A DNA stretch of 64,000 nucleotides from positions 20,295,673-20,359,672 of the forward strand of contig OX031070.1 in assembly GCA_943736015.1 (NCBI GenBank). Reading direction: 5' to 3'. The notes beneath the pieces are model-generated. The model did not search any database, was not told where the DNA came from, and was given only the letters and a program-made list of their open reading frames with translations. Of this stretch, positions 373 to 63,000 are shown in pieces. The DNA is from Tridacna crocea. Lineage: Eukaryota > Mollusca > Bivalvia > Cardiida > Cardiidae. Every line of letters starts with the position of its first letter. The stretch's first letter is position 1. The translations under genes and the position numbers were made by a program.

Positions 373-603
373 TTAACTCTTTAGTCCACACAACAAAATT
401 TCAGACTGGTTCAAATTGAAAGCATTTGCAGACGATAAAATAAAGGTGACTGAAAAATTGAAATTTGTTCTAGGAAGGGTAGAAAACACTGTGGGAAAAG
501 GAGAAAATGCTGGTTACCAGCATTTTCTCCTTTTCCTACAGTGTTTTCAAAAGGCTTCTTTCTCAGGGACGTCAAAAGTAGGGATTGTGTGGTAATGGGT
601 TAA
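373..603 (+). mobile_element. Family A copy, complete
   Basis: TTAA at both ends. The palindrome carries paired changes: CACTG on the left arm, CAGTG on the right, where the consensus has CATTG/CAATG. Confidence 0.85.
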
Positions 604-1379
604 TGAATCGTGCATGATACATACCAAGAAGTAATCTCATACTTAATTGAAACTGATTGAATCATATGAGAGGATACTAAGGAGGAGTCTTCAGAAATGC
701 AGAAAATTTACAAATAACAAAATTCAACCCATGTCAGCCTGTTCAGACATGGGTCAGTACTTTTTTTGCAGATGCATTATGCCACATTTTCACAGAAGAT
801 GTATTTTTATTTCATGATTTCTATTAGGTTATCGAAAATTACCACTGAAATATTTCTTTATATTTGATAATTATGACTAGTTAAAATACATGTACCTTTA
901 TTTATATTCTAACGGTTTAATTGAAACTTTACAGCCAGATGGAAATATGATGTCATTTACCTTACATTTCTCATGCTTGACATAGTATTGTAATGCATTG
1001 CTAGGCAGAAGGGGTATGCCACAGGGAATTACCAAAAAAAACCCTGTACTCTATAGGTCTAAAAGGAAGCCAGAGACAGTTGCCAGAACTCAGCCTGTGT
1101 GGTGGGAGACACCATTTTCAGTATAATAATTTATCAAGAAATTTTCTCGATGCAATCCGTCAATATATTATCTTTGCACTTCTTGATTCCTAAAGGACTT
1201 GGTAGATTTGAGAACCTATCCGAGTTTCTGGCCTGAAATCAAAATCAATAGATGGTCAATTTAAGAATCCAATTTGCAGACTCTTTGATTTCTTCTTTTG
1301 AATCCCTAGCTTATGATGTGAATTAATCAAAGTACCAAGCAATCCTTTGTCTTAACATGGAGACTTTTGTAAATAAGGT
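604..1379. other. No gene or clear repeat seen
   Basis: AT-rich sequence with one small hairpin at 727-754; no supported exon. Confidence 0.5.
727..754. repeat. Short hairpin
   Basis: ACCCATGTC and GACATGGGT pair around AGCCTGTTCA. Confidence 0.5.
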
Positions 1380-1560
1380 TAGAGCAAGGAGAAAGATAGG
1401 AGAAAAGAAGTGGGAAAAGCCAGTTACCACCTTTTCTCCTTTCCATAAAATGTTTTCTATCTATCTATGGACAAAGGTCAATTTTTGAATTGCATTTTAT
1501 TTTACCATATGAAAAAATGTTTGAATTTCAAAAACTCTAAAATTCTGTCGTAAGGGTATC
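1380..1560 (-). mobile_element. Family A copy, heavily decayed
   Basis: Hairpin remnant 'gggaaaagccagttaccacc' and the distal 'aaaattctgtcgtaaggg' can still be aligned. Confidence 0.5.
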
Positions 1561-1661
1561 GAGTGTAGGATAGCCTGACCTTGTTTAGATCAATTTTGTT
1601 TCATGCTTTTAGAGCTTTTGTACTAAAAGGAAATCACACCAACAGCAAGACAATATTTTTG

Positions 1662-1905
1662 CTAACTCTTTACAACACACCAAAATTTTAGAGTTGTCAA
1701 AATTGAAAGCACTTGCGGATGAAAAGACAAAAGAGGACAAGACTGATGATTTAATTTATCAGTGACAATATTGTTGAAAAAGGAGACAATGCTGGTTAAT
1801 GGCATTATTTGTTTTTAGGCAATGTTTTTCAGCAATGTTTTCATGCTTTAAAAGCATGCTTCCTACAATTTTCTATCTAATCACAGGGTACTGGTAAAGG
1901 ATTAA
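1662..1905 (+). mobile_element. Family A copy, decayed hairpin
   Basis: Ends are clear, but the right arm is replaced by a short duplication of 'gcaatgttttt'. Shares its right TTAA with the next copy. Confidence 0.65.
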
Positions 1906-2094
1906 TCCATTGCCACATAATCCCTACTTTTGACGACCCTGAGAAAGAAGCCTTTAGAAAACATTGTGGGAAAAGGAGAAAATGCTGGTAACCAGACCAC
2001 AGAACAAATTTCAAATTTCCAGTCATTTTTATTTTGTCATCTGCAAATGCTTTCAATTTGGACATTCCAAAATTTTTGTCGTTTGGTAATGAGA
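1902..2094 (-). mobile_element. Family A copy, one hairpin arm deleted
   Basis: After 'aatgctggtaaccag' the second arm is missing and the sequence resumes at 'accacagaacaaatttc'. Confidence 0.7.
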
Positions 2095-2316
2095 TAAAGC
2101 AGTGTTATTTGAGGTCAGTCTGTGAAATAGGACTAAAAAACTTCAAACTGTACTGCATAAATCCATATTAGTTTTTAGCTCCTGCCATTGACAACAGTTT
2201 TGGCAATGTTTTTGATAAAGGGTTGTTTGTTTAGTTTCTTAGCTGTGAAATTTGTTACTACTTGATAATTTTCATCTAGAGTGCTTTTGCTTTCTACATG
2301 CAAATACTCTGATCTG

Positions 2317-2540
2317 TCAAGTCTTTACCAAACAACAAGATCTAAGACTTGTCCAATTTCAAAGCATTTGCAGACGACAACATAATATATATTGTTCAAA
2401 AGATAGAATTTGTTTTGGGAAGAGTAGAAAACATTGTGGGAAATAGAGAAAATGCTGGTTACCAGCATTTTCTCCTTTTCCCACAATGTTTTCAAAAGAT
2501 TTCTTTCTCAGGGTCTTTAAAAGTTGGGATTATGTAACAG
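2317..2540 (+). mobile_element. Family A copy, near complete
   Basis: Hairpin intact except GGGAAATAGAG in the left arm; the right TTAA is lost. Confidence 0.75.
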
Positions 2541-3287
2541 AGAGATAAACAAGAATGAAACAGGTGGTCATTTGACAAAGTCATTGAGCAAATATTATTC
2601 TACAGAATTTGATGTGAGATGAGTCATTTTCTGAGAAATAGGGCATCAGAAGTATTTTAAAATAAAATTTGATTAAAATCATAGGCAGATGTATTTACGC
2701 ACATTTATGACAAAGGTCATACCTTCTGGTGTTCTTGACATTACCACATCTGTATTTCCTTGCAGCATAAAATTAGGGCAACATGCAATTAATGTCTTAT
2801 AAACATGTCAGCCACTGACCTTGTATGACCTCAAAGTCAATATATTATTATATGTGCCTTATGGCTTTTTGGCTCCTAGTGTATTTGGGCAGTTTGTTAG
2901 TGTGAAGGTACATTATGGACTGGCTAGAAGCAGTGCCAGTGCAGCAAATTATCAGGTAGTTAATGGTTAAGGCAATTTAATTAGTACATTTAGTGAGATA
3001 TTACAAGCAAAAAAAAAGTGTTTTCTCCTCAAATTTTTCTCAAAGTTTTCAGTTGAGGGACATTAACCCCCTGTCCCATAACCCAGTTTTTAGGAAAGTG
3101 ATGGTGAAAGCCGTTGAGAGCAGTACAGGAAAGGAAAAAACCATCATACTCTCCATTGCTCACAATGTACATGTATTCTAAAGTTTCACAATCATACATT
3201 TAAACTCATAATTTGAATCATTGATGTAATAATTATGTACCTGCAGGCAATTAAAAAATCAAACAAAATTCAGTATCTCACAAAATA
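2541..3287. other. No gene seen
   Basis: AT-rich unique-looking sequence; short open frames lack any family resemblance. Confidence 0.5.
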
Positions 3288-3509
3288 TTAACCCATTACC
3301 ACAAAATTCATACCTTTGATGATCCTGGGAAAAGAAGCCTTTAGAAAACATAGTGGGAAAAGGGGAAAATGCTGGTAACCAGCATTTTCTCCTTTTCTCA
3401 CTATGTTTTCTAACATTGCAAATCAAATGTCAATTTTGGATACACATTTATTTTGTCGTCTGCAAATGCTTTGAAGTTGGACAAGTCCAAAATTTTGTCG
3501 TTTGGTTAA
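3288..3509 (-). mobile_element. Family A copy, complete
   Basis: Paired change in the palindrome: CATAGTG on the left, CACTATG on the right. Confidence 0.8.
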
Positions 3510-3618
3510 AAAAAAAGTTAAAAACCAATGGATCTAAGATCAGGCTGGACCATCCAGTTATGATCGCTGCCACAGGGATTACTTTTGTGCTTTCCTTTTA
3601 TATGTCCGTCATGCTCTG

Positions 3619-3779
3619 TTAACCCTATCCCAATCAATCCTTGGTTTTCATGGCTCAGAAATAGAAGCCTTTTGAAAACATTGTGGGAAAAGGAGAAAAT
3701 GCTGGTACCAGCATTTCCTTCTTTTCCCACTGTTTTCTGCCCTATCATATAGAAAAATCATATTTTTAGCAATTGTTAA
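3619..3779 (-). mobile_element. Family A copy, right third deleted
   Basis: The hairpin is present but shortened; the distal segment is lost and the next copy begins at the shared TTAA. Confidence 0.7.
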
Positions 3780-4004
3780 CTCTTTACCAAACGACAAATT
3801 TATAGATAGGTCCGAATTAAAAGCATTTGCAGATGACAAAATAAATATGAATAAAGAATCGAAATTTGATTTGGGAAGGGTAGAAAACATTGTGGGAAAA
3901 GGAGAAAATGCTGGTTACCAGCATTTTCTCCTTTTCCCACAATGTTTTTAAAATGCTTCTATCACAGGGTCGTCAAAAGTCGTCATTGTGTGGTAAAGGG
4001 TTAA
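3776..4004 (+). mobile_element. Family A copy, complete; best example
   Basis: A perfect 61-bp palindrome (30-bp arms, single central base) and TTAA at both ends, both shared with neighbouring copies. Confidence 0.88.
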
Positions 4005-4072
4005 TTCGTCATCTGCAAAATGCTTTCAGTTTAGTCTGGTCCAAGATTTGTGGTTTGGGAAAGGGTAATATG
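4001..4072 (-). mobile_element. Family A end fragment
   Basis: Only the distal 'cgtcatctgcaaaatgcttt' to 'tggtttgggaaagggtaa' portion remains, about 135 bp before the VWC gene start. Confidence 0.6.
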
Positions 4073-4206
4073 AGGGTTAAATATATCTGCAAAGAGTATT
4101 GATCAATGTCAGCCTGCACAGTTCATCTTACTCTCTTCAAAGGACCACTTTACAATCAACCTTATTTTTATAGAGCCACTGACTATCTAACGACTTTCTT
4201 GGTAAT

Positions 4207-4543
4207 ATGCATCACAGAGATTTAACTCCTTTATCCAGACCAGTGCTCATTTGTTTTCTGTTAATGTTTTCAGTGCTTGGAGAGAAGCCTAAACTGATGT
4301 GCTCTGACTGGCAGGGAAAGCTTATTTCCCCTGGTGTAGAGTATTACCCCAAGGCTGAAGACCCGTGCTACAGATGTTACTGTGGGGAGATGGGCTTCGC
4401 TACAGGCTGTATGACTGTGTCCTGCGCTCCACCAAGCTGTCCCATGGGTTATCGTACCGTGACTGGAAAATGCTGCCACTTTGAATGTACAGAGGTTGGT
4501 GACAACACTACAGGTCTAACACCGCCAAAACATGATGTGACAG
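4207..4543 (+). CDS. Exon 1: signal peptide and VWC domain
   Basis: The ATG at 4207 is followed by basic and polar residues, then a hydrophobic run (VLICFLLMFSVLG), as in a signal peptide. The mature part has ten cysteines in VWC order: one early C, then a CYRCYC cluster, GC, VSC, PSC, and the closing CC-x3-C. The exon ends after the first base of a Gly codon at the donor CAG|GTACTT (4541-4549). It is the only sequence in the first 14 kb with clear codon logic and clear domain content. The start is chosen because it directly precedes the signal peptide; an upstream exon remains possible. Confidence 0.85.
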
Positions 4544-7500
4544 GTACTTAACTTTTTATTTTACTAAATTGTCCTACAATTTTCCATTCCTGAGATAAAA
4601 GGTTTTGTACAAGATAGAAAAAAAGGAGATGTTAAGATAGAAATTATTCTTTATGTGCCGTATTTTAACCCACATAGTTTGAAATAGATCATTTAGATGA
4701 TCTAAGGCAGTACAATATTGATATTGCAATTTAAGAATATCTGGCAAAATAAAGGTACAGTGTATATCAAGATCAGACTGCAGGTTGAATAATTATGATC
4801 TGATCATAGTTAACAATGTACATGTATACACAAACATTTTGATCCAGGCTTTGGCCAGCAATGATTAAAATACAACAGACAAAACCTGCAAAGCTTATAT
4901 ACCGGTACCCCTTGCCAAGTAGTGTAGGGTCTCTATTCACAATTCTCCTTAGCTGATCAGATGATATCTTATGTTAACTCATTACCTAATGACAATATTT
5001 TAGGCATGTCCATATTGAAAGCATTTGCAGACCATAAAATAAAAGTGACTGAAAGTTTGAAATTTGTTTTTTGAAGGGTAGAAAATATTGTGGGAAAAGG
5101 AGAAAATGCTGGTTACCAGCATTTTCTCCTTTTCCCATAATGTTTTCTAAAGGCCTCTTTCTCAGGGTCGTCAAAAGTAGGGATTGTGTGGTAATGGGTT
5201 AAAAGAAATTAATGTTGAAAATCTTGGAGAATAAGACAAAGAACATTCTTAAGAATGATTGTTGAATGCAGATCCTTATACATGTATGTTTATGACATTG
5301 GGACAGAAAAATATGTTTGAAAACATACAGAAAAGGAAAAAAAATGCTAGTGACTAGTAGATATAATTTCCAAAACATCAGATTCGTCAGCAGTTGCTTT
5401 CAAAATAGAAGAGTCTGAGATATTGTTGATTGGAAAAGATTTATGAAAATTATCTCACATTTTGTGCAGTCTGATATTTTTCTTTACTCTTTTCCAAAAC
5501 TGGTCACAATGTAGGTGCATTATGACCATGGATCTGCTCTGTTGGATGTCTGTTTAACACTTTACCAAACAACAAAATTTTGGAATGGCCCAATTTGAAA
5601 TGACTTGCAGACAATAAATCAGATGTTAATAAAAAGTTGAATTAGTTTTTGGAGGGGTAGAAAACGTTATGGGAAAAGAAGAAAATGATGGTTACCAGCA
5701 TTTTCTTCTTTTCCTACAATGTTTTCAAGGCTTTCTTTCTCAGGGTTGTTAAAAGTCAGGATTGTGTGGTAGTGGGTTAAGAGATAATCAAGTCAAAATG
5801 GCCTTTGAATTGCTATAACATAGGGTTTGTTTCTTTTTACAAAATATCTCTATTATATACAATCCCTAAATACCTTTCAATTTATTGCCTTGAAAAATAG
5901 ACTTTAGCACAGCAATTTTCAGGTAGTGTGATTTATCAGTACTTATGAGGTAATCATACACTTTTGATAAAAATCAAAGATAGCTCAAATAATTTGTGCC
6001 TTGCTCAGGCAAAAGCGGGTTTAACCCTTTACCAAACAGTCCCTGGTTTATACAACCCTGAGATAAAAGCCTTTTGAATACATTGCGGGTAAAGGAGAAA
6101 ATGCTGTTTTCTACCCTTCCCAAATTCAATTTCCATTTTTCAGTCACATTCATTTTGTCAGTCTACAAATGCTTTCAATTTGGACCAGTTTATAAATTTG
6201 TCATTTGGTAAAGAGTTAACCCTTTACCCCATAAGGCATTTCTGTAGTATCTGTAATGGACCCTAAATAACAGCAAGGATGATGCCATTTCTTATGTGTA
6301 TATGACACCTTTTGATGGCATAGAAAAGATTGTAACAAAAGGTGAAATTGCTTGTCACAAGCAATTTCACCTTTTGACTCGATGTTTTCCAAAGGCTCCT
6401 ACAAGCAATGTGTAGAAATGAGTATCTATGGAGTAAAGGGTTAAGGCACCTGCATGATGCATTAACCAAACAAAACATTACATTATCATGAAGCTATCAA
6501 ATCAGTCTTGCCTAGCAAAGACTCAAATATGAGATAGAATGATCTTTCGAAATACACAAAATCCTTTAATCCTTTACCACACGATGACGACTTTTAATGG
6601 CCCTGAGGAAGAAACCTTTAGAAAACATCGTGGGAAAAGGAGAAAATGCTGGTAACCAGCATTTTCTCCTTTTCCCACGATGTTTTCTATGCTTCACAGA
6701 ACAAATTTCAAATTTTCAGTCACTTTTAATTTGTCGTCTGCAAATGCTTTCTGTTAAGACAAGCATTTGCTTGTCGTCTGCAAATGCTTTCTGTTTAGAC
6801 AAGCATTTGCTTTTTTTCCCCACAATGCTTTCTACCCTTTTAGAAGTAAATTTTTTATTTTAGAGTCACATTTATTTTGTTGTCTGCAAAAACTTTGAAT
6901 CTGGACTAGTGTAAAATAGTGTCGCCTGTAAAAGGGTTAAAAACCTCAGCATACTGTAGTTCAAATGAAAAAAAAGTTGCAAGGGCTTCATCAAAAAGTG
7001 GTTGTACTTTATGATGGTGCTTGGTGTCTAAATCATATCTCTGTGTAATCTGTCAATTATATTTTCCCTGTTGAAATTCCAGCATTCAGGAACCTTTTGA
7101 TCTTTTTTATTCTGTAAAAATTACTCGGGATTATACTTATTGAAAAGAATTTCTGTAGAAAAAAGAAGGCTATTTTTATTATAAACTTAAAGATAACCAG
7201 TGCTTCTTGTCGAGTAGGTTTTCCATATTACAAAAGGTTACAGAAAGAACGAGAAACGTATGATTTGAAGAAATATGTAATTATGACTGAAAGAAATCTG
7301 GCAGGCAACATGCAAAAAGCAAGATATAGAAAGAATGGCTGCAAAATAAGTGAAGAAGGTATCACATGTACTGTTTTGCTCAGGGCTACAGATAAGAAGA
7401 GGTGACGGCATTCAAAAGTCTTTATATCTCTTTAAAATCCTATGTTGTGAGTTATATGTTGTAGGTACTGACGTTAGAATCGTCTAATCGAGACGATTCT

Positions 7501-10500
7501 AATGAGCACCCACAACATAGGGTTCAGTGGACAAAAACTGATGTTATCAATTTTGAAATCAAACTCCCTCCCTCTATCTGGAGCTTTGTTTGCTGTTGTG
7601 ACAATTTTAGCCTTTTTTTGTATTTAAAAAATAAACTGCATATTTAAGTTCTAAGATAAGCCAACTAAATGAAATAGAAGGCAATCAAAGAAACACATTG
7701 CTTTATGATGAAATGGGTTTGACATTGGCAACGAAAAGAAACCAAGATTTTGCCTTTTCAAGGCTTTAATCAGACTTCATATTCTCTACAGTCTGATCTT
7801 GGTCATCTGTCTGTAAAAGTAAATATGTGTAAAGAAGTATGTGGCACTTTAACTCTTTACCAAACAACAAAGTCTTAGACTGGCCCAGTTTGAAAGCACT
7901 TGCAGACATCATGATAAATGTCACTCAAAAATTAAAATTCAATTTGAAAAGTATAGAAAACACTGCAGGAAAAGGAGAAAATGCTGGTTACCAGCATTTT
8001 CTCCTTTTCCTACAATGTTTTTAAAAGTTTTCTTTCTGAGGGTTGTTAAAAGTCAGGTCTGTGTGGTAAAGGGTTAAACTTTTCCTATTTCAGTCTGTCT
8101 GCTTTTCTATATGTTATAATATCCATGAAAATGTTTCCAATTTCTTTGAAGGTAAGGTATAAGATTATAGTATCAGTGATTCAGAAAGATTGTTCAAATA
8201 TGTCAACACTAGCTTAAAAATTTTATCAGAGATGCAGTGCACTGTTCAAACATGTCAGATATGATACTAACTCTTTAACAAACGACAAAATTTTGGACTA
8301 GTCCAAATTGAAAGCATTTGCAGACAACAAAATAAATGTGAATCAAAAATTGAAATTTGATTTGGAAAGGATAGAAAACATTGTGGGAAAAGGAGAAAAT
8401 GCTGGTTACCAGCATTTTCTCCTTTTCCCACAATGTTTTCAAAAGGCTTCTTTTTTAGGGTCTGAAAACAAGGGATTGTTTAGGAAAGGGTTAAGCAAAG
8501 ATACAATGTACTGATTATCTATAATTGTTTGTAGTGCAAGTAAACATTAACCATTTACCAAACAACAAAATTTTGCACTCGACCAAATTGTCAACATTTG
8601 CAGAAAATTTCATCTCACATGATGATATTTGTCTTTGCTTAGGATTGAAAACATGGTGAGAAAAGCAGAAAATGAATGTCACCGCTGCAACATTTTCAGA
8701 AGGCTTCTTTAATGGGGTCATGAAAAATCGGGATTGTTTGGGGAAAGATTGTTTTGAAAATTTAGGTTATACATTTAGCTGGGAAAGATGTCAAAATGTC
8801 CTGTGAACAAGAGAAGGGGTAACCCTTTGCTGCACAGTCACAAGTTTTACCTTCTCTGTGGAAATATGCTTTTGAAAAAGTAGAAAATGTTGGTTACCTG
8901 CAAATTCTTTTTTCCATAATGTTTCTACCCTATTAAGACCATATCCTGCCATTTAATCCTTTACCAAGCAATCCCTGGGCCCTGGGGACAATTCCTGGAG
9001 GTAGGAGAACATGCTGGTAGCCAGCATTTTTGGGTAATGGAAAAAATGCTGGGAGCTAGCATTTTTGCCTTTCCCCACAATGTTTTCTACCTTGCTGGAA
9101 ACAAACTTCAATTTTTGAGTAATGTTTATTTTTGCCATCTGCAAGTGCTCTAATTTGGACAAGTCTAAATTTTGTCAACTGGTAAAGGGTTTAGCAACAA
9201 TGAATTTGTAGTGTGCAAATGCTTCCAGTTTGGGCAAGTCTTATTATCTCTAGGATAGCTTTGAAATATAGGTTTTTGGAGAAAACTGATGGTCAGAAGT
9301 AATTATTTGTAGTAATAAATCAGTCACTAATCAGTGTTATAATTGTATCTGTCCATTTGATAATGATTTATGTTATTTTGCACTGGCTCTTTTCTTTAAC
9401 CCTTTACCAAACAATCCCTGGTTTTTACGACCCTGAGATAAAAGCCTTTTGAAAACATTGTGGGAAAAGGAGAAAATGCTGGTAACCAGCATTTTCTCCT
9501 TTTTCCACAATGTTTTCTACCCTGCTGGAAACAAATTTCAATTTTTGATTTACGTTTATTTTGTCGTCTGCAAGTGCTTTCATTTTGGACCAGCCGAAAA
9601 TTTTGTCGTTTGGTAAAGAGTTAAACCCTGTCAGTGTCAAATATACCTGAACAGCAACCTGGAAAAACAATGTTCAATGCATAGATCTACCCGATTTATA
9701 TTAACCCTTTACCCCATAAGGCATTTCTATGGTATCTCTAATTGACTCTAAATAACAGCAAGGATGATTCCGTTTCTTATGTGTGTATATGACACATTTT
9801 GATAGCATAGAAAACATTGTGACAAAAAGTGAAATTGCTCGTCACGAGCAATTTCACCTTTTGCCACAATGTTTTCCAAAGGCTCCTACAAGCAATGCAT
9901 AGAAATGAGTATTTATCGTGTAAAGGGTTAATATCGTCTAACAAGTCATTGTAATTATAGAACCATAAATCCATTTCTTCTAACGGACTGAATCATGAAA
10001 TAGATTGGTCCTTTGACAATCAGAAAATTTACAAATAGTGAAAAGTTTCTATAGGTAAGCCTATGTGGACTGTCCAGGCTGACTTGGGGTTGATACCTTT
10101 TCCTCATTTCCACAATTATACCTGACTAATATAAATTAGACCTCTAAAGAAAATTGAAAATACCAGCATTTTCTCCTTTTCCCATCTCTACCCTCTTAGA
10201 GACAAATCGCACCAATTGAGTCACAGTTAACCCATTCTACACAATCCATACTTTTGATGACTGAGAAAGAAGACTTCAGAAAACATTGTGGAAACAGGAG
10301 AAAATGCTGGTAATGCCATTTCACATATTAATTGCACATACAATGTATTATTATTAATGTTTCAGTTATATGGCAGTGACCATTACACATATTAATGCTG
10401 TATTCAACATTGTTTCAGTTACATGTGGGTAAGAAAGAAATTGGCAGTGCTGTTTTTTTGAACCAGTGGCCCTCTCAGTTCTCAATTGAACTACTAGGGC

Positions 10501-13500
10501 TGAACTACTATTATGGTAGAAAAAGAAATATACTGGCTTTTTTACCTACATCCTTGTGAGCCAAGGTTCTACGTGAATCTTACCTTGGCTGATTGAGCCC
10601 GATTTCGAGATTCCTGCGATGCACCCTCTATTGGATGCTGGTTATTACCCCCCTTTATTTCTAAAGGCAAATGAAATACCATTTTACAAACCACTTAAGA
10701 ATACACATGAAGCGATAAGCAGACATCCACGTGGGTTTCCATGTTTACATTCTATTCGAAAGGTAGCTCAACCTTGTTATATTTTTATCAAACCAACGGT
10801 AGAGTAACGTAGTGAATCGTTAGCCTTGGCTTGCGAAGATGTTTTACCTATGGCCTTTTTACCTATGGCATTTTTACCGATAGCCTTTTTACCGTTGGCT
10901 TTTTTACCTAGATTCCCCGAATGTGTTATGGGAAGAAGTTTCTACAAATATTCTCCCTTCAACTTTTTGTTCTTGTGATTTCATGATTGACACTTCATAT
11001 GAAGCCTTCTTTTCCATCAAGTCAAGTTGGGAAATCTCAGACCACCCAGACAGACAGATACAGTTTAAATGGATCAATTTTCACCTCTACTGTATGGTGC
11101 TGAGCAATTTTTATCTGACATCTTGAAGTCTCTGACATGGCAGTGTTTTAGTGTAAAGATACCAAATTATTTGAACTATTCTGTAACTCCTATTAATACA
11201 ACTGTGATGCATTTTATGCCCTTCAGTTATAGATAGTATTGGAAACGTGATAGGAACAGTAGCAATTGCTTGTAATAACTTCTTGTTCCTTTTTGCACAT
11301 TGATTTCCATATGGCTTGCAACACATGGAAAGGGGCATTGATACATTGGTGTAAAGTGTCAACTCGTATCAGCCTGAGCAGTCCGTGCAGGCTAATACGA
11401 GATGGCAATTTCCATTTTATATGTAATTTTCTATTTCACACAAGTCCACTGTAGGACAAAATGTAATGGAGTTGTGAAGTGCCAGACTGCGAAGGCTGAT
11501 CCGAGACGGCACTTTATGCAAATGCCCCTATTGCGTGTTACAAGCTATTTCACACTTTCCTGACACGATCCTGAGAAAGAAATCCTTGAAAACATCGGAA
11601 AATGAGAAAAAACTAGTAACCAGCATTTTTAGCTCACCTGAGCACGAAGTGCTCATGGTGAGCTATTGTGATCGTGCTGTGTCCGGCGTCCGTCGTCCGT
11701 CGTCAACTTTTTACCTTGTGTACGCTCTAGAGGCCACAGTTTTGGTCGGATACTCATGAAAGTTGGTCAGGATGTTTGTCTCGATGAAATCTCGGACGAG
11801 TTCGAAAATGGGTCATGTGGGGTCAAAAACTAGGTCACTAGGTCAAATCTTAGAAAAACCTTGTGTACGCTCTAGAGGCCGCATTTTGAGTCGGATACTC
11901 ATGAAAGTTGGTCAGGATGTTTGTCTCGATGATATCTCGGACGAGTTCGAAAATGGGTCACGTGGGGTCAAAAACTAGGTCACCAGGTCAAATCTTAGAA
12001 AAACCTTGTGTACGCTCTAGAGGCCGCATTTTGAGTCGGATACTCATGAAAGTTGGTCAGAATGTTTGTCTGGATGATATCTCGGACGAGTTCGAAAATG
12101 GGTCACGTGGGGTCAAAAACTAGGTCACCAGGTCAAATCTTAGAAAAACCTTTTGTAGGCTCTAGAGGCCACATTTTCAGTCGGATACTCATGCAAGTTG
12201 GTCAGGATGTTTGTCTGGATGATATCTCGGACGAGTTCGAAAATGGGTCACGTGGGGTCAAAAACTAGGTCACCAGGTCAAATCTTAGAAAAACCTTTTG
12301 TAGGCTCTAGAGGCCACAGTTTTGGTCGGATACTCATGCAAGTTGGTCAGGATGTTTGTCTGGATGATATCTCGGACGAGTTCGAAAGTGGGTCACGTGG
12401 GGTCAAAAACTAGGTCACCAGGTCAAATCTTAGAAAAACCTTTTGTAGGCTCTAGAGGCCACATTTTCAGTCGGATACTCATGCAAGTTAGTCAGGATGT
12501 TTGTCTGGATGATATCTCGGACGAGTTCGAAAGTGGGTCACGTGGGGTCAAAAACTAGGTCACCAGGTCAAATCTTAGAAAAACCTTTTGTAGGCTCTAG
12601 AGGCCACATTTTCAGTCGGATACTCATGCAAGTTGGTCAGGATGTTTGTCTGGATGATATCTCGGACGAGTTCGAAAGTGGGTCACGTGGGGTCAAAAAC
12701 TAGGTCACCAGGTCAAATCTTAGAAAAACCTTTTGTAGGCTCTAGAGGCCACATTTTCAGTCGGATACTCATGCAAGTTGGTCAGGATGTTTGTCTGGAT
12801 GATATCTCGGACGAGTTCGAAAGTGGGTCACGTGGGGTCAAAAACTAGGTCACCAGGTCAAATCTTAGAAAAACCTTTTGTAGGCTCTAGAGGCCACATT
12901 TTCAGTCGGATACTCATGAAAGTTGGTCAGGATGTTTGTCTGGATGATATCTCGGACGAGTTCGAAAATGGGTCACGTGGGGTCAAAAACTAGGTCACCA
13001 GGTCAAATCTTAGAAAAACCTTTTGTAGGCTCTAGAGGCCACATTTTCAGTCGGATACTCATGAAAGTTGGTCAGGATGTTTGTCTGGATGATATCTCAG
13101 ACGAGTTCGAAAATGGGTCACGTGGGGTCAAAAACTAGGTCACTAGGTCAAATCTTAGAAAAACCTTTTGTAGGCTCTAGAGGCCACATTTTCAGTGCGA
13201 AACTCTTGTAAGTTGGTCAGAATGTTTGTCTTGATGATATCTCAGACAGGTTTGAAAATGGGTCATTGGGGGTTAAAAACTAGGTCACCAGGTCAAATCT
13301 TAGAAAAACCGTGTATATGCTCTGGATGCCACATTTTCAGTCCAACACTCTTGAAAATTAGTCAGAATGTTTGCCTTTATAATATCTTGGATGAGTTTGA
13401 AAATGGGTCATGTTGGGTCAAAAACTGGGTCAATAGGTCAAATGTTATAAACACCTTTTGTATGCTCTGGAGGATACATTTTCAGTCTGATACTCCTAAA

Positions 13501-16500
13501 ACTTGTTCATAATATTTGTCCTGGTGATACCTTGAATGAGTTTGAAAATGGGTCATGTGGAGTCAAAAACTAGGTCAATGGCTCAAATATTAGAAAAACC
13601 TTGTGTACACTCCAGAGGCTACATTTTCTGCCTGATACTCTTCAGACTTGGTCAGAATGTTTGTTTTGGTGATGTCTCAAAAGAGTTTGATAATGGGTAT
13701 TTGTCGGTTCCAAAACTAGGTCACTTGATGAAATCTTAGAAAAACCTTTTGTACACTGTAGAGGCCACATTTTCAGTCCAATACTCATGAAACTTGGCCA
13801 GAATGTTTGTCTTATTGATATCTCAAAAGTGTTTGATGATGGGTAATGTCTGATAAAAAACTAGGTCACTGGGAAACTAGATGGTGCATGTTTGGTCAAT
13901 AAACTCAGGTGAGCGATTTCAGGGCCATCATGGCCCTCTTGTCTTCTTTTTCCCCCGCTGTTTTCAACTCTTCCACTGAAAAAATTTCAATTTTTGGAGT
14001 CACAAGGATGATCATGTCTGCAAATGCTTTGTATATAGGCAAGTCTAATATTTTGGTGTTTCGTAAAGAGTGAAAGTCTTAATCAATGAGAGGATTTTCC
14101 TCACAACTAAAAAATAATCCATTATTATTTACTTTCTGGCAAATGCAAAGCATGACATTAACTGCCACAGAGAAAGTTAGGAGGGAAAAAGAATTAATGT
14201 CATTTTGATATTTTTGAGCTCGGAAAGCATCTTACCAGGTGTTACAAATTTTAAATGTGTCAGGATTCATAGTATTTGTAGAAAACAGCTTACACTTTCC
14301 CAGATAGCAAAAGTTTAGAGTTGTCAAAATGAAAAGCATCCCAGATAAAAAGTTAAAGGTAGCTCAGATGATTGCATTTCCAATAGATATGGAAGACAAC
14401 ATTGTGCACGGGAAATGAGGGATTTGCTGGTTACCACCATTTCTGTATTTCCCACAATGTTTCAGAGGTATCTTTCAGACTCAATAGAACTTTAGAAAGT
14501 TTGCTTAACTCTTTACCAAACAACAAAATTTTAGACTGATCCAAATTGAAAGCATTTGCAGACGACATAGTAAAACTGATTGAAAGTTTGAAATTTGTTT
14601 TGGGAAGGGAAGAAAACATTGTGGGAAAAGGAGAAACTGCTGGTTACCAGCATAATTTTCCTTTTCCCTCAATGTTTTCAGAAGGCTTTTTTCTCAGGGT
14701 CGTTAAAAGTCAGGATTGTGTGGTAAAGAGTTAAAAATTGAATCTATGTGCGAAAGAGTAGAAGCCACTGTTTAAATAAGAGAAAATACTGCTGGTAACA
14801 AGCATTTTCTTCTTCTCTCACTAAGTTTTCAAAAGCCTTCCATTGACATTAGGTTCCTAAAACATGGGTTTTTCTGGTAAAGGGTTAATACTATTTGCCA
14901 TGGAAAAGAACATCAGAAAGATGACAATCAATTACAGTTTTTTCTATTTTCTTCAGGTAAAGCGTCGGAAGACTCAATGACAGACCTAGGTTTGAGACTT
15001 GTTGCCAGCACTGTTACAACATTCCTCATCCTTGCCGTTCTCCTTGTTCTTATCCACAGACTCAGACAACGTAGACTGCTGGTTGCTTTAAGACGTAAGT
15101 TTTCATTCTCAGAAACTGTATTGTTTAAATGTCCTTTTACCTCTCAATCCTGAGTTTTAATAACCTTTAGAAAGATTGCTGTTGAAAACATCTTTGGAAA
15201 AAGGAAAAATGCTGGTAACAAGTATTTATACCTCCGCAAAACGAATGTTTTCATGGTTATACTGGAATGATGTGGAATCAGTGTGTCGGTCTGTCAGTGT
15301 GTGCTTCCCTTTGTTTGTCAGCTTATCCACGGCGGGGAATCACGTGACACAACAACAAAAAGAATGACCGACATTTGAAGAAATTCCCCCCTTTCAGGTA
15401 AGAAAATCTTCAACAATTCCATTTATACGTGACCGATTGGAATTTGGTTTGAAGCAGAGAAGGCGGAAGGACTCCTGGGATTTGCTTGATGTGTTAGATT
15501 TTTTAAACAACACCTGATAAAAAAGTTATTGACGAGCAAACAAATTATCCAGGGTAAAAAGTTTGTTTGCTCATCAATAACTTTTTTATCGGGTGTTGTT
15601 TAAAAAATCTAACACATCAAGCAAATCCCTGGAGTCCTTCCGCCTTCTCTGCTTCAAACCAAATTCCAATCGGTCATGTATTAACGGAATTATTGAAGAT
15701 TTTCTTACCTCAAGTTGGGGAATTTTTTCAAATGTCGGGTCATTTTTGTTGTTGTGGTGTCATGTGATTCCTCGCCGTGTTATCCGTGTGTGCATCTGTG
15801 TACAAAATACTAATACATGTAATTATCTGTTTCTGTCAAAGCACTGGCGGAAATATTAGTCATATCCAGTTTATAACTATGGTTTCTCCTTTCCCCACAA
15901 TTTTTTCATTCCTACCAAAAATAATTTCATTCATTTTAGCAAAATTTAATTTGTCCTCTACAAATGATGTGGATTTGGACAAGTTTGTCTTCAGTAAAGA
16001 GTTAAGTATTTTAAGTGCAATTGTAGACATCACTTGAAAATTGGATCAAATGATGGAATTGTGTAATTGAAACACTGTATTAGAAAACCAGACTTGGAAA
16101 AGGGATGAATGTCTGTTATAAGGTTGATTTCCTTTTCAAACAATGTTTCCATGGCATCAAGCCTAATATATGTATAAGCAGAAATCATTCTGAAACAAAA
16201 ATTGTAATAATGAACTAAAACTTTTTTTTCTCAACAGATGGTAAATATCTTGACTATTTATGACAGGACAAAAGTTTCGACTCCTTAAATTCAAAGCCTA
16301 AGAATACAACACCTTAAATGTTACTCAGATGGTAAGATATGGCTCTTGTAGGGGTAGGAAACTTCTTTGGAAAGGAGAAGATGGGCTTTCCCATATTTTT
16401 TCTTTTCTTCAGATTTTGTTTGAAAGGAAGTTTACTTCAGGTTATGATTTTGTTTGAAAAGAAGTTTACTTCAGGTTATTTGAAACATGGAATTGCTTTG

Positions 16501-19500: not shown

Positions 19501-22500
19501 TTTGTCTAGTGGACCTCTACAAACAGTGTCTAAATTATAGCCCTGGGGTCAAAATTGGCCCCGCCCTGGGGATAACAAGTTTTACATGGGCTTACAAAGG
19601 GAAAACTTTAAAATTCTTCTTCCACCTAGCCATAGGGCCTAGGGCTACCAAATTTGGTATGTAGCTTTATCTAGTGGACCTCTACCAAGGGTGTCCAAAT
19701 TATAGCCCAGGGGTCAAATTTGGGCCCACCCCGGGGGGTAACAAATTTCACATGGGCTTATATAGGGAAAACTTTCAAAATCCTCTTGCACCTAGCTATA
19801 AGGGCTAGGGCTATCAAATTTTGCATGTAGCTTTATCTAGGGGTTCTCTACCAAGGGTGCCCAAATTAGAGCCCTGGAGTCAAATTTAGTCCCGTCACAG
19901 GGGGTCACAAGTTTTACACGGGCTCATATAGGGAAACTTTAATAATCTACTTGTACATAGCCATAAGGCCTAGGGCTACCAAATTTTGCATGTAGTTTTA
20001 TCTAATGGGCCTATACCAAGAGGGCCCAAATTTTAACTTTGCGGGGTCAAGTTTGACCCCACCCCAGGGGTCACAAGTTTTACATTGGCTTTATAAACCT
20101 GTCTCATGGGTCACATATTTTACTGGGCCTTTTATTGAGCAAACTTGTTTTACAGTGCTTTTTATTGGGCAAGATTAAAAAATCTTCGTGTTTATAACCA
20201 CACATACTAGTTTCATATTGCAGGCCTGGGGTCAAAATTGGCTCCATTCCGGGATCACAAGTTTAACATGGGCTTCAAAATATAGTCACTTCAATTTAAA
20301 TATTAATCAAGAGAAATAACTCTTTTTTATGAAAGATAAAGTTTGGTACTATTTACCTCCCTTGATTATAAAATTGCATTGATACATGATTGGTGCTAGA
20401 CATTAATTTTTTTGATAGAAAATACTCTGTTTTCAAGTGTGATTCATTTTGATTCTAATAGTTATGCTCACATGAGGGGAATAATAAATTCAGAGTAAGG
20501 TTTCTATCATTCAGCTTATATTTCCAAGGATCTTACCTTTCCTTCTAATGAATTGATCTGCTTGTACTGCCTGGCAGTGTTCATTGTTTTTGAAGGCCCT
20601 CTTTTTCATGGTCATGAACACTTCAACTTGTGTGGTAAAGGGTAAAAAAGCCAGTGGAGCGATACAGGGCCATCATGGCCCTCTTGTTTTTTTAAATGAC
20701 TGAATCTTGGGGTAAAATGGTCCTTCAATATGCTGAAAATTTTACAGATAGAACAAAAGTTCAACACGTATCAGCCTTTTGGGATTACACGGCTGACACA
20801 GTCTGTTCTTTTGCAGATGTATTAAACCTCCTTGTTCCAGGGAATGGCTCATGCAGTATATTGTATGCTGTGAATATGCCTCTCTGTAGTTTGCAGATAC
20901 TGTTTGATTTTCAATTTTCAGTTCGAATACACAAGTTTCTTGTAGTTTAATTGATTGCTTGATATTTCATGTTTCATATGATTGTATGACATGATTGATT
21001 GCTACATATTATTTTCTTCATAGAACTGCTTTCTTATTTGTCTGTGACAGATAGCTTTTGAAATTAGTTTGAAGGGAAAGGATTGTTGAATCTTACTAAT
21101 GCATCATAAAAAAAAAAACTTAGCAGAACCATATGGTCCCAAGTTTGATACATGGGAACAGATGTCGGCTTTCGAACTTTTCACTGGCCCACACACTTAG
21201 CACAAGTACTGGTGCAGTTCCCAGGAAGTAGAGTCAAGAGAGATAAGATTAAACTTAATCTAATTGACCTCTACAAAGTTCCTTCATATAATAGCCCTGG
21301 GGTCAAAAATGTCCCACCCCAGGGGTCACAAGTTTTATATGGGCTTTTATAGGGAAAAATTTAAAATCCTTCTGGTACCTAGCTAAAGGGCCTAGGGCTA
21401 CCAAATTTGGCATGTATATTTAGCATGTGGGCATCTACCAAAATGCCCAAATTATAGCCCTGTGGTCAAAGTTGGCCTGGCCCCAGGGGTCACAGGTTTT
21501 ATATTGCCTTATATAGGGGAACACTTTAAAAATCTTCTATTACCTAGTGATAAGGCCTAGGACTACCAAATTTTGCATATTGCTTTATCTAGTAGGCCTC
21601 TACCAAGACGGTCCAAATGATATTATAGGGGTCAAGTTTGTCCCAACACCAGGGGTCACAAATTCAACATGGGCTTTTGTGGTGAAGACTTTAAAACCCT
21701 CTTGTTACTAGCCATAATAAGACCAAGGGCTACTAGATTTAGCTCTGTCTCATGGGTCTCATGTTTTACAGGGCCTTTTATTGAGAAAAGTTCGAAAACC
21801 TTGTTTATACCCAGACATTCTAGACCTTCATTAAATGGTATGGGGCTTTATCTTGTGGATCTCCTCCAAGTAATTATAGCTTTGTGATCAAAACGGCTCT
21901 GCCTTGGGGTCATAAATTTCTCGTAGAGTTTTATAGAAAAAATATCAGAGAAGAAATAAATGAAATTTACTTTCATATTTTTCCAGGTTATGGTCACAGA
22001 AGGGAACACCTTGATGATTCAGATAATATTAGCTACTCCCCAGACTATTTTGGGATCCAGTGCCCACCCTATGTAGACCCTCCACCCCCATATACACTCC
22101 CAAAACCACCATATTACCAGCATGGGGAACAGCCACCTCCATATGAAGAGGTGGTGGAAAACAGTAATGAGAGTGCTACAAGAGACCAGATCACAACCAA
22201 TGGGAACCAAATGGGAACTTCTAGAAACTCAACTTCCAACAATGAATTGCAGACTGATACTTCAAACAGATACCTTGCAAGAGAATCAAGGGAAAGTAAT
22301 TCAAATTCATTTGTAACTGGTGTTACCCATCAATTTAATCAAAATAGAAATAATTCATCATTAGTGAGGGAAAATAGAGTTGGAGTTGGTTGTAGTGTTA
22401 GGGAACACAGCACTCACTGCAATAACTTGGTGGACCCATCTGATGGGATCATTACTACAGATAGGCATTCTGGGATTGTTCACTTTAGAAATAGCATGGC

Positions 22501-39817: not shown

Positions 39818-40040
39818 TTAATCCTTTCTCAAATGACAAATTTAAAACTGTCCCAAACTAAAAGTGTTTGCAGGTGACAATTTTGAATTTGATGAGAATG
39901 GCAAAAAGTTTTCTAATAGGCTAGAAAACGCTGTGGGAAAAGGAAAAATTGCTCATTACAGGCAATTTCTCCTTTTCCCACAGTGTTTTCTAAATACTTG
40001 TACTGCAGTATAAACCAGGGCTTGTTCGGGAAAGAGTTAA
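39818..40040 (+). mobile_element. Family A ends with a family B-like hairpin centre
   Basis: Outer parts match family A; the centre is 'aaattgctcattacaggcaa', closer to family B. Arms carry the paired change CTGTGGG/CCCACAG. Confidence 0.65.
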
Positions 40041-45843: not shown

Positions 45844-46020
45844 GTTTAACCTTTTACCAAGCATACCCATGTTGGTACAACTCTTGAGAAAAAAGCCCTT
45901 TGAAACATTATGGGAAAAGGAGAAAATGCTTGTTTTTCTGTCCTTTCTGATACAAATCCAAAGACTTTGTCATCTACAAATGACTATAATATGGAAAGGT
46001 CTGCATTTCAATCAAGTTAA
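45844..46020 (-). mobile_element. Family A copy, hairpin half deleted
   Basis: 'gaaaatgcttgtttttctgt' marks the deletion; shares TTAA at 46017 with the next copy. Confidence 0.65.
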
Positions 46021-46245
46021 CCCTCTACCAAATGACAAAAACTTAGTCCAATCCAAACTGAAAGCATTTGCAGACAACAAAATAACTGTGACCCAAAAAT
46101 CGAAATTTGACTTTCGAAGAGTAGAAAACATTGTGGGAAAAGGAGAAAATGCTGGTAACCAGCATTTTCTCCTTTTCCCACAATGTCTTAAAAAGGCTGC
46201 TTCTTTGGAGCCGTAAAAACCAGGGATTGCTTGGTAAAGGGGTAA
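46017..46245 (+). mobile_element. Family A copy, complete
   Basis: Perfect inner palindrome with a GGTAACC centre instead of GGTTACC; right TTAA mutated to GTAA. Confidence 0.8.
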
Positions 46246-50179: not shown

Positions 50180-50385
50180 CAGGGTCCGTTACTTCACCAA
50201 CCATTTTTAAGAATATTCTTTGTCTAACTTTTCAAGATTTTCTAACTGTGAAAGTAACAGAACTTCTGATTGGCTAGACCGTTCAGTTTAGCCAATCAGA
50301 AGTTTTGTTACTTTCACATGGACAAAATTCTGAAGAATTAGACAAAAGAAAGTTCTTAAGAATGGTTGTTGAATACAGACCCTGG
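50180..50385. mobile_element. Foldback element FB (CAGGGTC...GACCCTG), copy 1
   Basis: The arms run from 'tcaccaaccatttttaagaa' to 'ttcttaagaatggttgttga', with the centre 'gattggctagaccgttcagtttagccaatc'-like palindrome split over 50268-50300. No coding. Confidence 0.6.
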
Positions 50386-55115: not shown

Positions 55116-55149
55116 TATATAACATTGAACATAAAGATAGTTGGTTGGT

Positions 55150-57203: not shown

Positions 57204-57225
57204 GGAGGGCCCTATCTTTATTCTT

Positions 57226-57925: not shown

Positions 57926-58061
57926 GACCCAAATAACAGTGTAAATCCAAGATCAGGGGACCATCAGTATGGAATAGTGTATGAGAACTACCACCTAATT
58001 GGTTAAGAATTTTGAGAAGGACCACCTAATTGGTTAAGATTTTCATTAGCAGCTAGTCAGA

Positions 58062-60016: not shown

Positions 60017-60217
60017 ACTTAACGAAATAGCAAAATTTGGGACTAAATTAAGTTGAAAGAATTTGGCTCAAACTATGATTTTTGTCTTCTGTAGGGTAAA
60101 GAACATAGTGAAAAGAGGAGAAAATGCTTGTTGCCAACATTTTCTCCTTTTCTTTATGTTTTCAGAAAGCTTTGTTCAGAGGGCCATTGAAACTGGAGAT
60201 TGTATAGCAAAAGATTA
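60017..60217 (+). mobile_element. Family A copy, decayed
   Basis: Centre 'gcttgttgccaacatt'; end AGCAAAAGATTAA. Confidence 0.55.
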
Positions 60218-60257
60218 AAGAATATTACCCAAAAATAGCCCAGGTATCCAAATTTCC

Positions 60258-60490
60258 ACCCTTTCATCCTTTATAAAATTATCACAAATTTCAACAACTC
60301 TAGGGATGAAGGGTTCTGAAAACTTTGCGGGAAAATGAAAAAAATGCTGGTAACTGGCATTTTCTCCTTTTCTCACAACATGCTCTACTCTCTCAGTCAA
60401 ATTCTATCATAAAAGACCACATTAAACTGGTCATCTAGAAATGCTTTAAATTTAGACAAGTCTGAGATTTAGTTTTACAGTCATCTTGTA
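60258..60490 (-). mobile_element. Family A copy, decayed
   Basis: Centre 'atgctggtaactggcat'; TTAA ends lost. Confidence 0.5.
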
Positions 60491-60642
60491 AGAATTTAAA
60501 GCAATCAGACAGAATAAAGTTGTTTTACTAGAAACTGTAAATCAGATTTGAATTCTCAGCTCTTCACGGTCAGCTGTCCTAAATTTTCTTTTTGGTCGAT
60601 TGATTAATTTCTTTGACAGGCTGTAATGTCATGAGTTATTTA

Positions 60643-60805
60643 AGAAGTAATCTTCTTCCTATTGTGGTTTATCGTTCTATAAACTACAGGTGTGAGTTAT
60701 GGGGCACAATGAATAATCCACAAGGGCGATAGCCCGAGTGTTTTATTGCGCCTCATAACTCACATGGTTTATTGAATGATAAACCAAGATAGAAGATTAT
60801 TTCGA
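60643..60805. mobile_element. Short inverted-repeat element
   Basis: Imperfect inverted arms: 'aatcttcttcctattgtggt' on the left opposes 'aagatagaagattatt' on the right, and 'tgtgagttatggggcacaat' opposes 'attgcgcctcataactcaca'. Arms are about 75 bp. A smaller hairpin 'gggcgatagccc' lies at the centre. Confidence 0.55.
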
Positions 60806-61159
60806 TTCTAACATGGCCAATTCTTAATGAAAGGAAAACAAGCTCAAACTTGGAGTAAACACTCCAATGAAAAATCTGTTCCATTGAATATTAACCCTTT
60901 CAACGAATGACGATACTCGATATAGAATGACGTCACTCTGCATGGAATGTCGCAGATTTTACCATGCTTTCCTTGCACTGTGTTTATAGACACAAATTGG
61001 CGACTCATGTTAGAATATGCTTTGAATTTTTTGTGTTATTTGAAAAAACCTTATAAGCACATCAAAACTAGAACCTTAGCAAATGAGGGTTTCACGCTTC
61101 CTTCTCGATGTACGATACCAAGCATGTCATTACGGTGTAATGGATCCATAAAATCCATT

Positions 61160-61390
61160 TTAACCCTTTACCAAACAATCCCTGTTTTTTTCGACCCTAA
61201 TATTATTAAGCCTTTTGAAAACATTGTGGGAAAAGGAGAAAATGCTGGTAACCAGCATTTTCTCCTTTTCCCACTATGTTTTCTACCCTGCTGGAAACGA
61301 ATTTCAGCTTTTGAAGTACGGTTATTCTATCATCTGCAAGTGCTTTCAATTTGAACCAGTCTAAAATTCTGTCGTTTTGTAAAGGGTTAA
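61160..61390 (-). mobile_element. Family A copy, complete, 48 bp before the 61439 exon
   Basis: Near-perfect palindrome, both TTAA ends; same subgroup as 9396-9624 ('ctaccctgctggaaac'). Confidence 0.85.
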
Positions 61391-61438
61391 GCTGGCTTTT
61401 ACAGAGCATGGCTTAGTTCAGTTTTGTTCTCCTTTCAG

Positions 61439-61637
61439 GGGACCAGGGGGCTCCCAACATGATGCTTCATCCCCATACAAGAGAAGTAGGCCCCAGAGCC
61501 CATCAAGCTCTGTAATGCAGGGAGCCATGAGACCCGGAGCAGCTTATTACCAAGATCCTAGATATGGTCTGGCAGTAGCAGCAGTGGCTTCAGGGGGCTT
61601 TGAAAGTATTTACAGGAACCCTTTCCAGACTGCTGGG
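61439..61637 (+). CDS. Internal coding exon of an unrecognised second gene (partial)
   Basis: The acceptor TTCTCCTTTCAG ends at 61438 and the strong donor GTGAGT starts at 61638. Only one of the three frames is open: one base completes a previous codon, then 66 codons end in phase 0. The peptide begins GPGGSQHDASSPYKRSRPQS, continues with a Ser-rich stretch and an MRPGAAYYQDPRYG segment, and ends IYRNPFQTAG. GC content is visibly higher than in the flanking DNA, as expected of coding sequence. The Gly/Pro/Ser/Tyr-rich composition resembles low-complexity regions of nuclear or RNA-binding proteins, but I do not recognise the family. The partner exons are not identified in this window. Confidence 0.7.
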
Positions 61638-61661
61638 GTGAGTATAGGATCCACTACCTAA

Positions 61662-62830
61662 TTAATCCTTTACCAGACAACAAAATTTTAGACTGGACGT
61701 AATTCACACTGATCAACGTGAGCCGCAGACACCATGTGTTCTTGGTACACCAGATCAAATTTTTACATGGAAGAACCGGTGGTGGTGTAAGTATTTTCAT
61801 TTTTGTGGACCTGGTTTACCTAGATAGAAATGTTGATTTACAGCAATGTCAAGACAAATGATTGATCTGTTTACATACATACTACGGAATAATAATACCA
61901 TCATCTAAGCGAGCTGTGGCTTTATGAGCAACTGGGGTCTTATTGTTTTGCAGTTTATTGCCAAATTTTGGACAAAATTCCAAACCATTGTTCATTTTAC
62001 AAGTTTGTATGATAAGATATATGTATTCCCTAAAGGAACACAAAATTTCACTTAGAAATGTCCATCCAAAGCGAAGATATGTGTTTTTGAATGGACCTGG
62101 GTAGAGGAAAGTATGCTAACAAGACACCAATTTTATTTTCAATGTATGCACATGGACACCAGATCAGAAAAAGCTTGGGGTAACTGAACACCAACGTTTA
62201 AATCATCAATATTTCTGCCTGAAACTCGATGCATGGGCTGTGTACGAAGACTATTTTTGTAAACATTATGTCTCTACGGTCCATTACCTGATAAAGAGCG
62301 TGTTCAACCCAACTTCATTACTTCTAGCACTTGCTTTTTTGAAATATTTGCAATATTACTGCAATTTACGAAGTAGACTTACGATGCTTGATCACAATTG
62401 TCCGGTCATTGCCTCCAATGGTTTGGAATTTTGTCCAAAATTTGGCAATAAACTGCAAAACAATAAGACCCCAGTTGCTCATAAAGCCACAGCTCGCTTA
62501 GATGATGGTATTATTATTCCGTAGTATGTATGTAAACAGATCAATCATTTGTCTTGACATTGCTGTAAATCAACATTTCTTTCTAGGTAAATCAGGTCCA
62601 TAAAAATGAAAATACTTACACCACCTCCGGTTCTTCCATGTAAAAATTTGATCTGGTGTACCGAGAACACATGGTGTCCGCGGCTCACGTTGATCAGTGT
62701 GTAATTGAAAGCATTTGCAGATGACAATTTCACTGTGGCTCAAATGGTGTAATTTTTCTCTGATAGAGCAGAAAACATTATGGGAGAAAAGGAGAACATG
62801 CTGGTTACAATGCTGGTAGCTTAGGGTAAT
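61662..62830 (+). mobile_element. Family A copy split by the 997-bp element
   Basis: Left part 61662-61704; right part resumes at 'taattgaaagcatttgcag' (62702) and decays after the hairpin left arm. Confidence 0.68.
61705..62701. mobile_element. 997-bp element with 286-bp terminal inverted repeats and 5-bp target duplication
   Basis: The left arm 61705-61990 and right arm 62416-62701 are inverted copies with only a few differences, both starting CACACTGATCAACGTGAGCC from outside. TAATT flanks both sides (61700-61704 and 62702-62706). It splits a family A copy, whose two halves resume exactly at the target site. The 425-bp interior has no recognised transposase; the 94-codon frame at 62240-62524 partly reads the right arm and looks fortuitous. 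It is probably a non-autonomous DNA transposon, and the arm similarity suggests it is young. Confidence 0.75.
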
Positions 62831-62848
62831 ACTTCTCAATGCACCAGC

Positions 62849-63000
62849 TAAACTCTTTACCAAACAATCCCATGTTTTAAACGACCTGGAGGAAAATGGC
62901 TTTTGAAAAAATTGTAGGAAAAGGTAAAAATGCTGATAACTAGCATTTTCTTCTTTGTTTTATAATAATATCTGCTCTTTCAAAGTTGTTCCATCATTTT
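62849..63000 (-). mobile_element. Family A fragment, decayed
   Basis: 'aactctttaccaaacaatcc' to 'gctgataactagcattttct'; right third lost. Confidence 0.55.

Follow-up and report, generated by a model that had tools for sequence, protein, structure and literature searches.

The window analysed here, i.e., a stretch of 64,000 nt from the bivalve Tridacna crocea (contig OX031070.1, positions 20,295,673 to 20,359,672 of the forward strand), carries throughout its length a dispersed repeat of about 228 bp that runs from TTAA to TTAA around a central palindrome. In iterated profile searches, in which any hit that shared more than 25 bases with a better one was dropped and copies of a sibling family were counted, we found 114 copies and fragments that make up 18,957 of the 64,000 bases (29.6%; an earlier profile model gave a coverage of 30.8%). 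A preceding sequence-only reading of the window had put this at about 85-90 copies filling about a quarter of it, which is fair, if slightly low. It had also described a 61-bp palindrome with 30-bp arms; we measure 65-67 bp, i.e., arms of 32-33 bp and one unpaired central base (T or A, depending on orientation). Copies are uniform in size and lack a transposase (227-column model, to which 154 main-family copies align over 195 columns or more), and TTAA is found at both ends of 75 of the 103 copies that reach both model ends (both families, duplicates kept). According to the consensus and the listed copies, the termini read CYCWTTACCA within terminal inverted repeats (TIRs) of about 13-15 bp; the second base is C or T, such that the motif is looser than CCYT. 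Going by TTAA duplication, terminal motif, short TIRs, small size and the ends it shares with an autonomous element described below, the repeat classifies by its sequence as a piggyBac-type miniature inverted-repeat transposable element (MITE).

The following copies are listed with pairs numbered outward from the palindrome centre. All five matched changes quoted by the sequence-only reading (copies at 373, 3288, 5554, 6566 and 39818) are present in the sequence.

29..162, + strand: sibling-family copy (extent is the part aligned by the main-family model)
373..603, + strand: MITE, TTAA to TTAA; palindrome 482-548; matched pair 26 C-G (CACTG/CAGTG)
3288..3509, - strand: MITE copy; palindrome 3341-3413; matched pair 25 A-T (CATAG/CTATG)
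3777..4002, + strand: MITE copy; perfect 65-bp palindrome 3884-3948
4975..5200, + strand: MITE copy; palindrome 5079-5149 with unmatched changes
5554..5780, + strand: MITE copy; palindrome 5660-5726; matched pair 14 A-T and several unmatched changes
6217..6443, + strand: sibling-family copy; flanks differ; palindrome AAAAGGTGAAATTGC...
6566..6764, - strand: MITE copy; perfect palindrome 6619-6689; matched pair 25 C-G (CATCG/CGATG); its exact 65-mer occurs 64 times genome-wide
8268..8492, + strand: MITE copy; perfect palindrome 8374-8440
9702..9930, + strand: sibling-family copy
39818..40039, + strand: MITE copy; palindrome 39922-39992; matched pairs 8 (T-A) and 26 (C-G)
46018..46241, + strand: MITE copy; palindrome 46128-46186
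61162..61389, - strand: MITE copy; palindrome 61217-61283

Genome-wide, the exact 31-bp core occurs 183,553 times in 1,048,827,098 bases, while the reversed-pattern control yields 0 occurrences; a 35-base core pattern of the sibling family is found 16,020 times. Eight 10-kb regions, taken at hand-picked round coordinates and not as a random draw, contain 107 copies and fragments covering 17,300 of 80,000 bases (21.6%; 2% to 44% per region). Extrapolation from these regions, in which fragments and sibling-family copies are included, leads to an estimate of about 1.4 million copies that would occupy about 230 Mb; going by the regional spread, the uncertainty is wide (roughly 0.8-2 million copies). 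The sample is not atypical, since window and regions together hold 27 exact cores in 144 kb, i.e., 188 per Mb compared to 175 per Mb genome-wide. If the estimate holds, one non-autonomous piggyBac family and its sibling account for about one fifth of a gigabase genome, and well over 100,000 replicas form a natural experiment from which one can learn what features of a MITE contribute to its spreading.

We also searched the genome for the piggyBac transposase domain PF13843 and obtained 118 matches (116 of 196 candidates scored). Among them is a 6.4-kb element on C7 (L041, 1265-7640) with TTAA on both sides, whose transposase domain (E 3.7e-89) is covered by an open reading frame without stops across its whole length. 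Over the first 38 bases, the left end of this element and one end of the MITE agree at 34 positions, a count that includes the TTAA, the first T of which was added to the consensus by hand. At the opposite end only about the terminal 17 bp are common to both, with mismatches. The piggyBac assignment that had been made from TTAA targets and CYCTTT ends is thus supported, and an autonomous partner exists that is alike at one end. Within the 6.4-kb element the end motif recurs three more times inward, the last repeat diverging partway; an exact 23-mer of this repeat has 6,705 occurrences genome-wide. The MITE has one copy of the motif versus four in the autonomous element. By analogy to piggyBat, where an interior transposase-binding site on the left end is described to restrict activity (PMC11707139), the MITE may have lost a restraint.

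A second element type of about 7.2 kb has related ends (left end from L045; right end from L039, via alignment to L040, to which it is 99.9% identical over 7.2 kb), and both autonomous types carry MITE-like insertions. Over 4.1 kb, four loci (L025, L026, L027, L029) match L028 at 99.6-99.9% identity. These five piggyBac loci, L025-L029 (G000 C15, C3, C5, C9 and C10), have MITE-like insertions at shared places, and together this suggests a recent movement. Eight loci reach at least 77% identity to the query transposase along a minimum of 435 of 481 residues, and seven of these lack stops; the number is a lower bound given that 89 of 192 candidates were scored. Kolobok elements also use TTAA targets. 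A Kolobok-type MITE is unlikely given the piggyBac end match; a Kolobok transposase was not searched for. Another piggyBac family (L014-L018) has TTAA-CCCTTTATATAC ends about 2.8 kb apart.

For the analysis of arm pairing, loci that were near-identical, overlapping or contained in others were removed (11 at first, 15 in later models). Of 344 copies, the 197 with both arms were kept, which leaves 190 for the permutation test after exclusion of seven sibling copies. Six of the 190 are L039 copies that repeat those of L040; they were removed for the pairing counts (184 copies) as well as for the tree and cluster analyses. Only 13 of the 184 main-family copies are perfectly paired, the median copy has 5 of 33 pairs broken, and 992 one-sided arm changes are observed. 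Within the window, 4 of the 60 main-family copies with both arms are perfectly paired (median of 4.5 pairs broken). That is, the statement that the family keeps its arms paired is wrong for individual copies, as 171/184 are mismatched. Selection at the host level on each copy was for the same reason set aside as unsupported.

Matched double changes are nevertheless modestly in excess over chance. We count 105 such cells among the 190 copies versus a mean of 70.7 (sd 7.4, maximum of 95 in 500 permutations) when right arms are exchanged among copies of similar divergence, and cells changed on both sides make up 2.75% compared to 1.6-2.0% for eight slid partners. About a dozen of the 105 matched cells are a single variant, i.e., C-G at pair 26. 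When changes are mapped onto a flank-only tree of 154 copies, the terminal branches carry 581 changes that break a pair, along with 27 double changes that match and 23 that do not; with partners slid by 1-3 columns, the same tree shows 23-37 terminal doubles. One-sided G-T and A-C changes number 295 and 246 (p 0.04, 184 copies), a weak signal for a strand-specific tolerance of wobble pairs, and this reading was set aside.

The picture differs at the level of lineages. Among close neighbours (n=23) compared at held-out flank sites, divergence is 0.104 in flanks, 0.116 in TIRs and 0.044 in arms, i.e., the arms show about 0.42 of the flank divergence. Consensus sequences of three flank-defined clusters (48, 18 and 6 copies, i.e., 72/154) differ at 39/343 flank and 6/68 TIR positions but at 0/196 arm positions, considering columns with at least 60% majority and summing over the three cluster pairs. 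Two tighter clusters give 12/120 (flank), 2/22 (TIR) and 0/66 (arms), two looser ones 15/108, 1/22 and 0/64, respectively. Likewise, tree-mapped changes per site on internal branches amount to 5.5 for flanks, 4.25 for TIRs and 1.5 for arms, compared to 16.8, 11.1 and 11.2 on terminal branches. Per 1,000 bases, the 48-copy cluster has 17.3 singletons in flanks, 20.9 in TIRs and 14.8 in arms, and 92.7, 70.1 and 31.5 shared changes, respectively. Counted by alleles, this singleton/shared contrast between arms and flanks is significant at clustering thresholds of 0.24-0.28 (p 0.004, 5e-5 and 3e-5). Arms are slower to change than flanks within clusters also when like base classes are compared. Selection on the hairpin, one of the two explanations offered by the sequence-only reading (there for a transcribed hairpin), is thus supported for spreading lineages and not for individual copies. 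The TIRs, which ought to be needed by the transposase, are about as variable as the spacers when close copies are compared. Equal rates of private changes in the youngest pairs were dropped as a neutral-rate argument, as these pairs are selected by low flank distance and hence biased.

The sibling family has the termini and a homologous palindrome in common with the main family, while the spacers differ and barely align. Its consensus was built from nine copies with left flank, the two weakest being uncertain members, and departs from the main palindrome at pairs 3, 8, 13 and 20 (4/33) and at the centre. In all four arm differences the two bases of a pair are exchanged (G-C to C-G or A-T to T-A); the chance that all four are symmetric is about 3e-7 if four changes per arm are placed uniformly. 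Since the differences are compensated despite barely aligning spacers, the symmetry has survived an old divergence.

We then counted double mutants genome-wide, requiring the remaining core positions to be exact and tallying types by eye from the first places in contig order. For pair 6, there are 8,740 single mutants and 282 doubles. Among 50 distinct doubles listed, 27 are matched (22 A-T, 5 T-A) and 23 unmatched, while about 53% matched is predicted from the singles listed (of 100, by eye about 69 are A, 19 T and 12 C); i.e., no matched excess is found among the 50, where an excess of about 15 points would escape detection. Gene conversion between arms after insertion, the other explanation offered, therefore receives no support from this pair and was set aside. 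The total of doubles is 2.7 times that of simple independence (about 104), as a mixture of copy ages would give. Pair 10 has 2,442 singles and 289 doubles, with 45 of 50 listed doubles matched (41 C-G, 3 G-C, 1 T-A); for pair 11, with 205 doubles and singles uncounted, it is 39 of 50 (35 G-C, 3 T-A, 1 C-G). Such a dominance of one matched type is the pattern that subfamily ancestry gives. The singles of pair 10 are unequal by genome strand (1,339 v 1,103), which insertions in random orientation would not be expected to show.

Of the eight pair-10 C-G copies fetched, seven show mutual flank distances of 0.10-0.24, with one apart at 0.35-0.41; of three fetched G-C copies, one is apart (0.40-0.43) and two are 0.18 apart. 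The flanks are compatible with a subfamily descent of the C-G copies, as far as sequence distances tell. They do not define the C-G carriers, since one pair-10 G-C copy and one pair-11 G-C copy share the flank group, being as near to the seven as those are to each other. On the flank-only tree, the T-A to C-G change of pair 26 is placed in two clades, one of 11 copies and one of 4. For pair 25, 64 exact C-G doubles of the 6566 type contrast with 513 exact left singles (right singles and unchanged 65-mers uncounted); some of these singles may be decayed doubles, because C-G at this pair creates a CpG. Ancestry hence likely accounts for many of the matched changes, though not demonstrably for all.

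Given these observations, we consider it probable that the repeat is a non-autonomous piggyBac-type MITE whose palindrome is a cis feature favouring amplification, kept in spreading lineages while individual copies decay. The transposase of the 6.4-kb element, or of a close relative, would have moved the MITE in trans to more than one million copies, and the central palindrome with its 33-bp arms would have raised, in cis, a copy's chance of seeding new ones. Lineages that continued spreading would thereby have stayed symmetric in the palindrome while their spacers drifted; once inserted, a copy would decay and its arms would mismatch independently. Candidate benefits of a hairpin are a snap-back of single-stranded DNA that joins the ends, a symmetric site for the transposase or a host factor, and an escape from silencing. 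We favour a hairpin that acts at the DNA level in transposition. It is drifting spacers versus an invariant, compensated palindrome that point to a cis feature in MITE spread.

Several observations weigh against this reading. The tree built from flanks is a weak one, and on its internal branches 74 changes break a pair, next to 5 matched and 0 unmatched doubles (slid partners: 1-3 internal doubles). The consensus of an 11-copy cluster (threshold 0.28) is unpaired at pair 20, with 50% support. The support from singleton and shared changes depends on the clustering threshold, the contrast being not significant at 0.18-0.22 (p 0.41-0.54). It is odd that arms are constrained but TIRs hardly more conserved than flanks. 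Furthermore, the arms are without CpG and purine-rich on one side, and their slower change may partly be mutational, reflecting a lower mutability; the profile, which contains the palindrome, may favour copies with well-preserved arms. Finally, no homologous palindrome was found outside MITE-like insertions in the autonomous-element stretches examined, and the transposase therefore apparently does without it on the element that encodes it.

Two alternatives are possible, though we doubt either. Matched changes could reflect subfamily ancestry alone, with sources that chanced on symmetric variants and a hairpin free of constraint. This agrees with the single types dominating pairs 10 (41/50 listed) and 11 (35/50 listed), the clades of pair 26 and the related flanks of 7/8 pair-10 C-G copies, but leaves unexplained why cluster consensuses differ in flanks and not in arms and why all four sibling differences are symmetric. 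The palindrome could instead be a symmetric transposase-binding site and not a hairpin, as in palindromes near the ends of piggyBac-family elements. According to the respective reports, cysteine-rich domains bind the end palindromes of piggyBat (PMC11707139), and the PGBD3 transposase likewise binds such palindromes, MER85 being bound via the one at its 5' end (PMC3459987). Those are about 14-19 bp long and near the ends, however, while ours spans 67 bp, is central and, as stated, was seen in autonomous stretches only within MITE-like insertions.

Processes that copy one arm onto the other are less credible. A rewriting during transposition, by which new sources become symmetric in one step, is improbable in our view: the sibling's differences consist entirely of pair flips, an outcome that stepwise change through wobble intermediates would hardly favour, and further matched types occur in low numbers (two each at pairs 10 and 11, one at pair 6), but the one at pair 6 is within chance, four events are few, and neither an intermediate nor a mechanism was seen. 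We see only a slim chance that the hairpin is itself the unit of heredity in amplification, with a single-stranded stage in which one arm can template the other and successful lineages become symmetric in one step; if true, a few piggyBac genes could suffice to drive more than a million copies. That arms correct each other after insertion, by hairpin opening and repair or template switching, appears very unlikely. Matched changes in little-diverged copies (6566, 3288), the excess over permutation and the 64 doubles of pair 25 fit such a correction, while the matching at pair 6 is at chance and 171 of the 184 copies remain unrepaired; this chance-level matching is clear at one pair only, as subfamilies may confound the result for pairs 10 and 11. 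Equally remote is a selection on small RNAs from transcribed hairpins. All five folded copies are stable (-33.7 to -57.9 kcal/mol, 0/200 shuffles as stable in each case) and some MITE copies may be intronic, but the Rfam scan of the window gave 0 families at gathering score and the strand signal of G-T versus A-C changes is weak. Made1 differs from our element in being of mariner type with a terminal rather than central palindrome. It is alike in that MITE-derived sequences are described to give microRNA genes (hsa-mir-548; PMC1784062).

By description, the closest known counterparts of the element are the CMITEs of Acropora corals. They are reported to have TTAA sites, CCCTTT-like ends, short TIRs, one family linked by its ends to a piggyBac-like element, and an internal part that is better conserved from family to family than the TIRs (PMC2872659). 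They differ in being about 100 bp long with an estimated 1,600 copies or so in A. millepora, a comparison made by description and not by sequence, and the word palindrome is absent from that paper (PMC2872659). The human MER85 related to PGBD3 is also a short piggyBac MITE with TTAA sites and a palindromic motif bound by transposase; it is given as an internal-deletion derivative of 140 bp with 889 elements and a 16-bp imperfect palindrome near the 5' end (PMC3459987). Bacterial REPINs are hairpin-forming miniature mobile DNA in which compensatory stem changes are called common, but depend on RAYT transposases, and their three commonest 16-mers total 1,067 in the strain studied (PMC3116915). 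Our element lies in a 1.05 Gb genome that is not bacterial; the likeness to REPINs is thus one of working only, and RAYT was not searched for. The element stands apart from the CMITEs by its long palindrome at the centre, by changes that are compensated between its families, and by its scale. In the open-licence literature, judged mostly from listings, we recognised no description of this element, without claiming that it is unpublished.

Beside the MITE, the window holds a tandem array of about 145-bp units (12159-13512), whose overlapping open frames give near-identical 84-aa translations every 145 bp, and an inverted repeat with 60-bp arms and a 7-base loop (15490-15616) that is unlike the MITE palindrome. 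Two further inverted repeats (50247-50318 and 63079-63186) have TGATTGGCTA / TAGCCAATCA in common and are perhaps another MITE-like family. Possible exons of a single + strand gene are located at 4183-4551, 14881-15153 and 21824-24796; they include a VWC-like domain of 24 bits (below the Pfam cut-off of 27.6), a hydrophobic stretch and an open frame of 990 aa for which Pfam gives no match. Finally, 61882-62115 and 62120-62524 form an inverted duplication, since an identical 35-aa stretch (NGLEFCPKFGNKLQNN...) is encoded on opposite strands.

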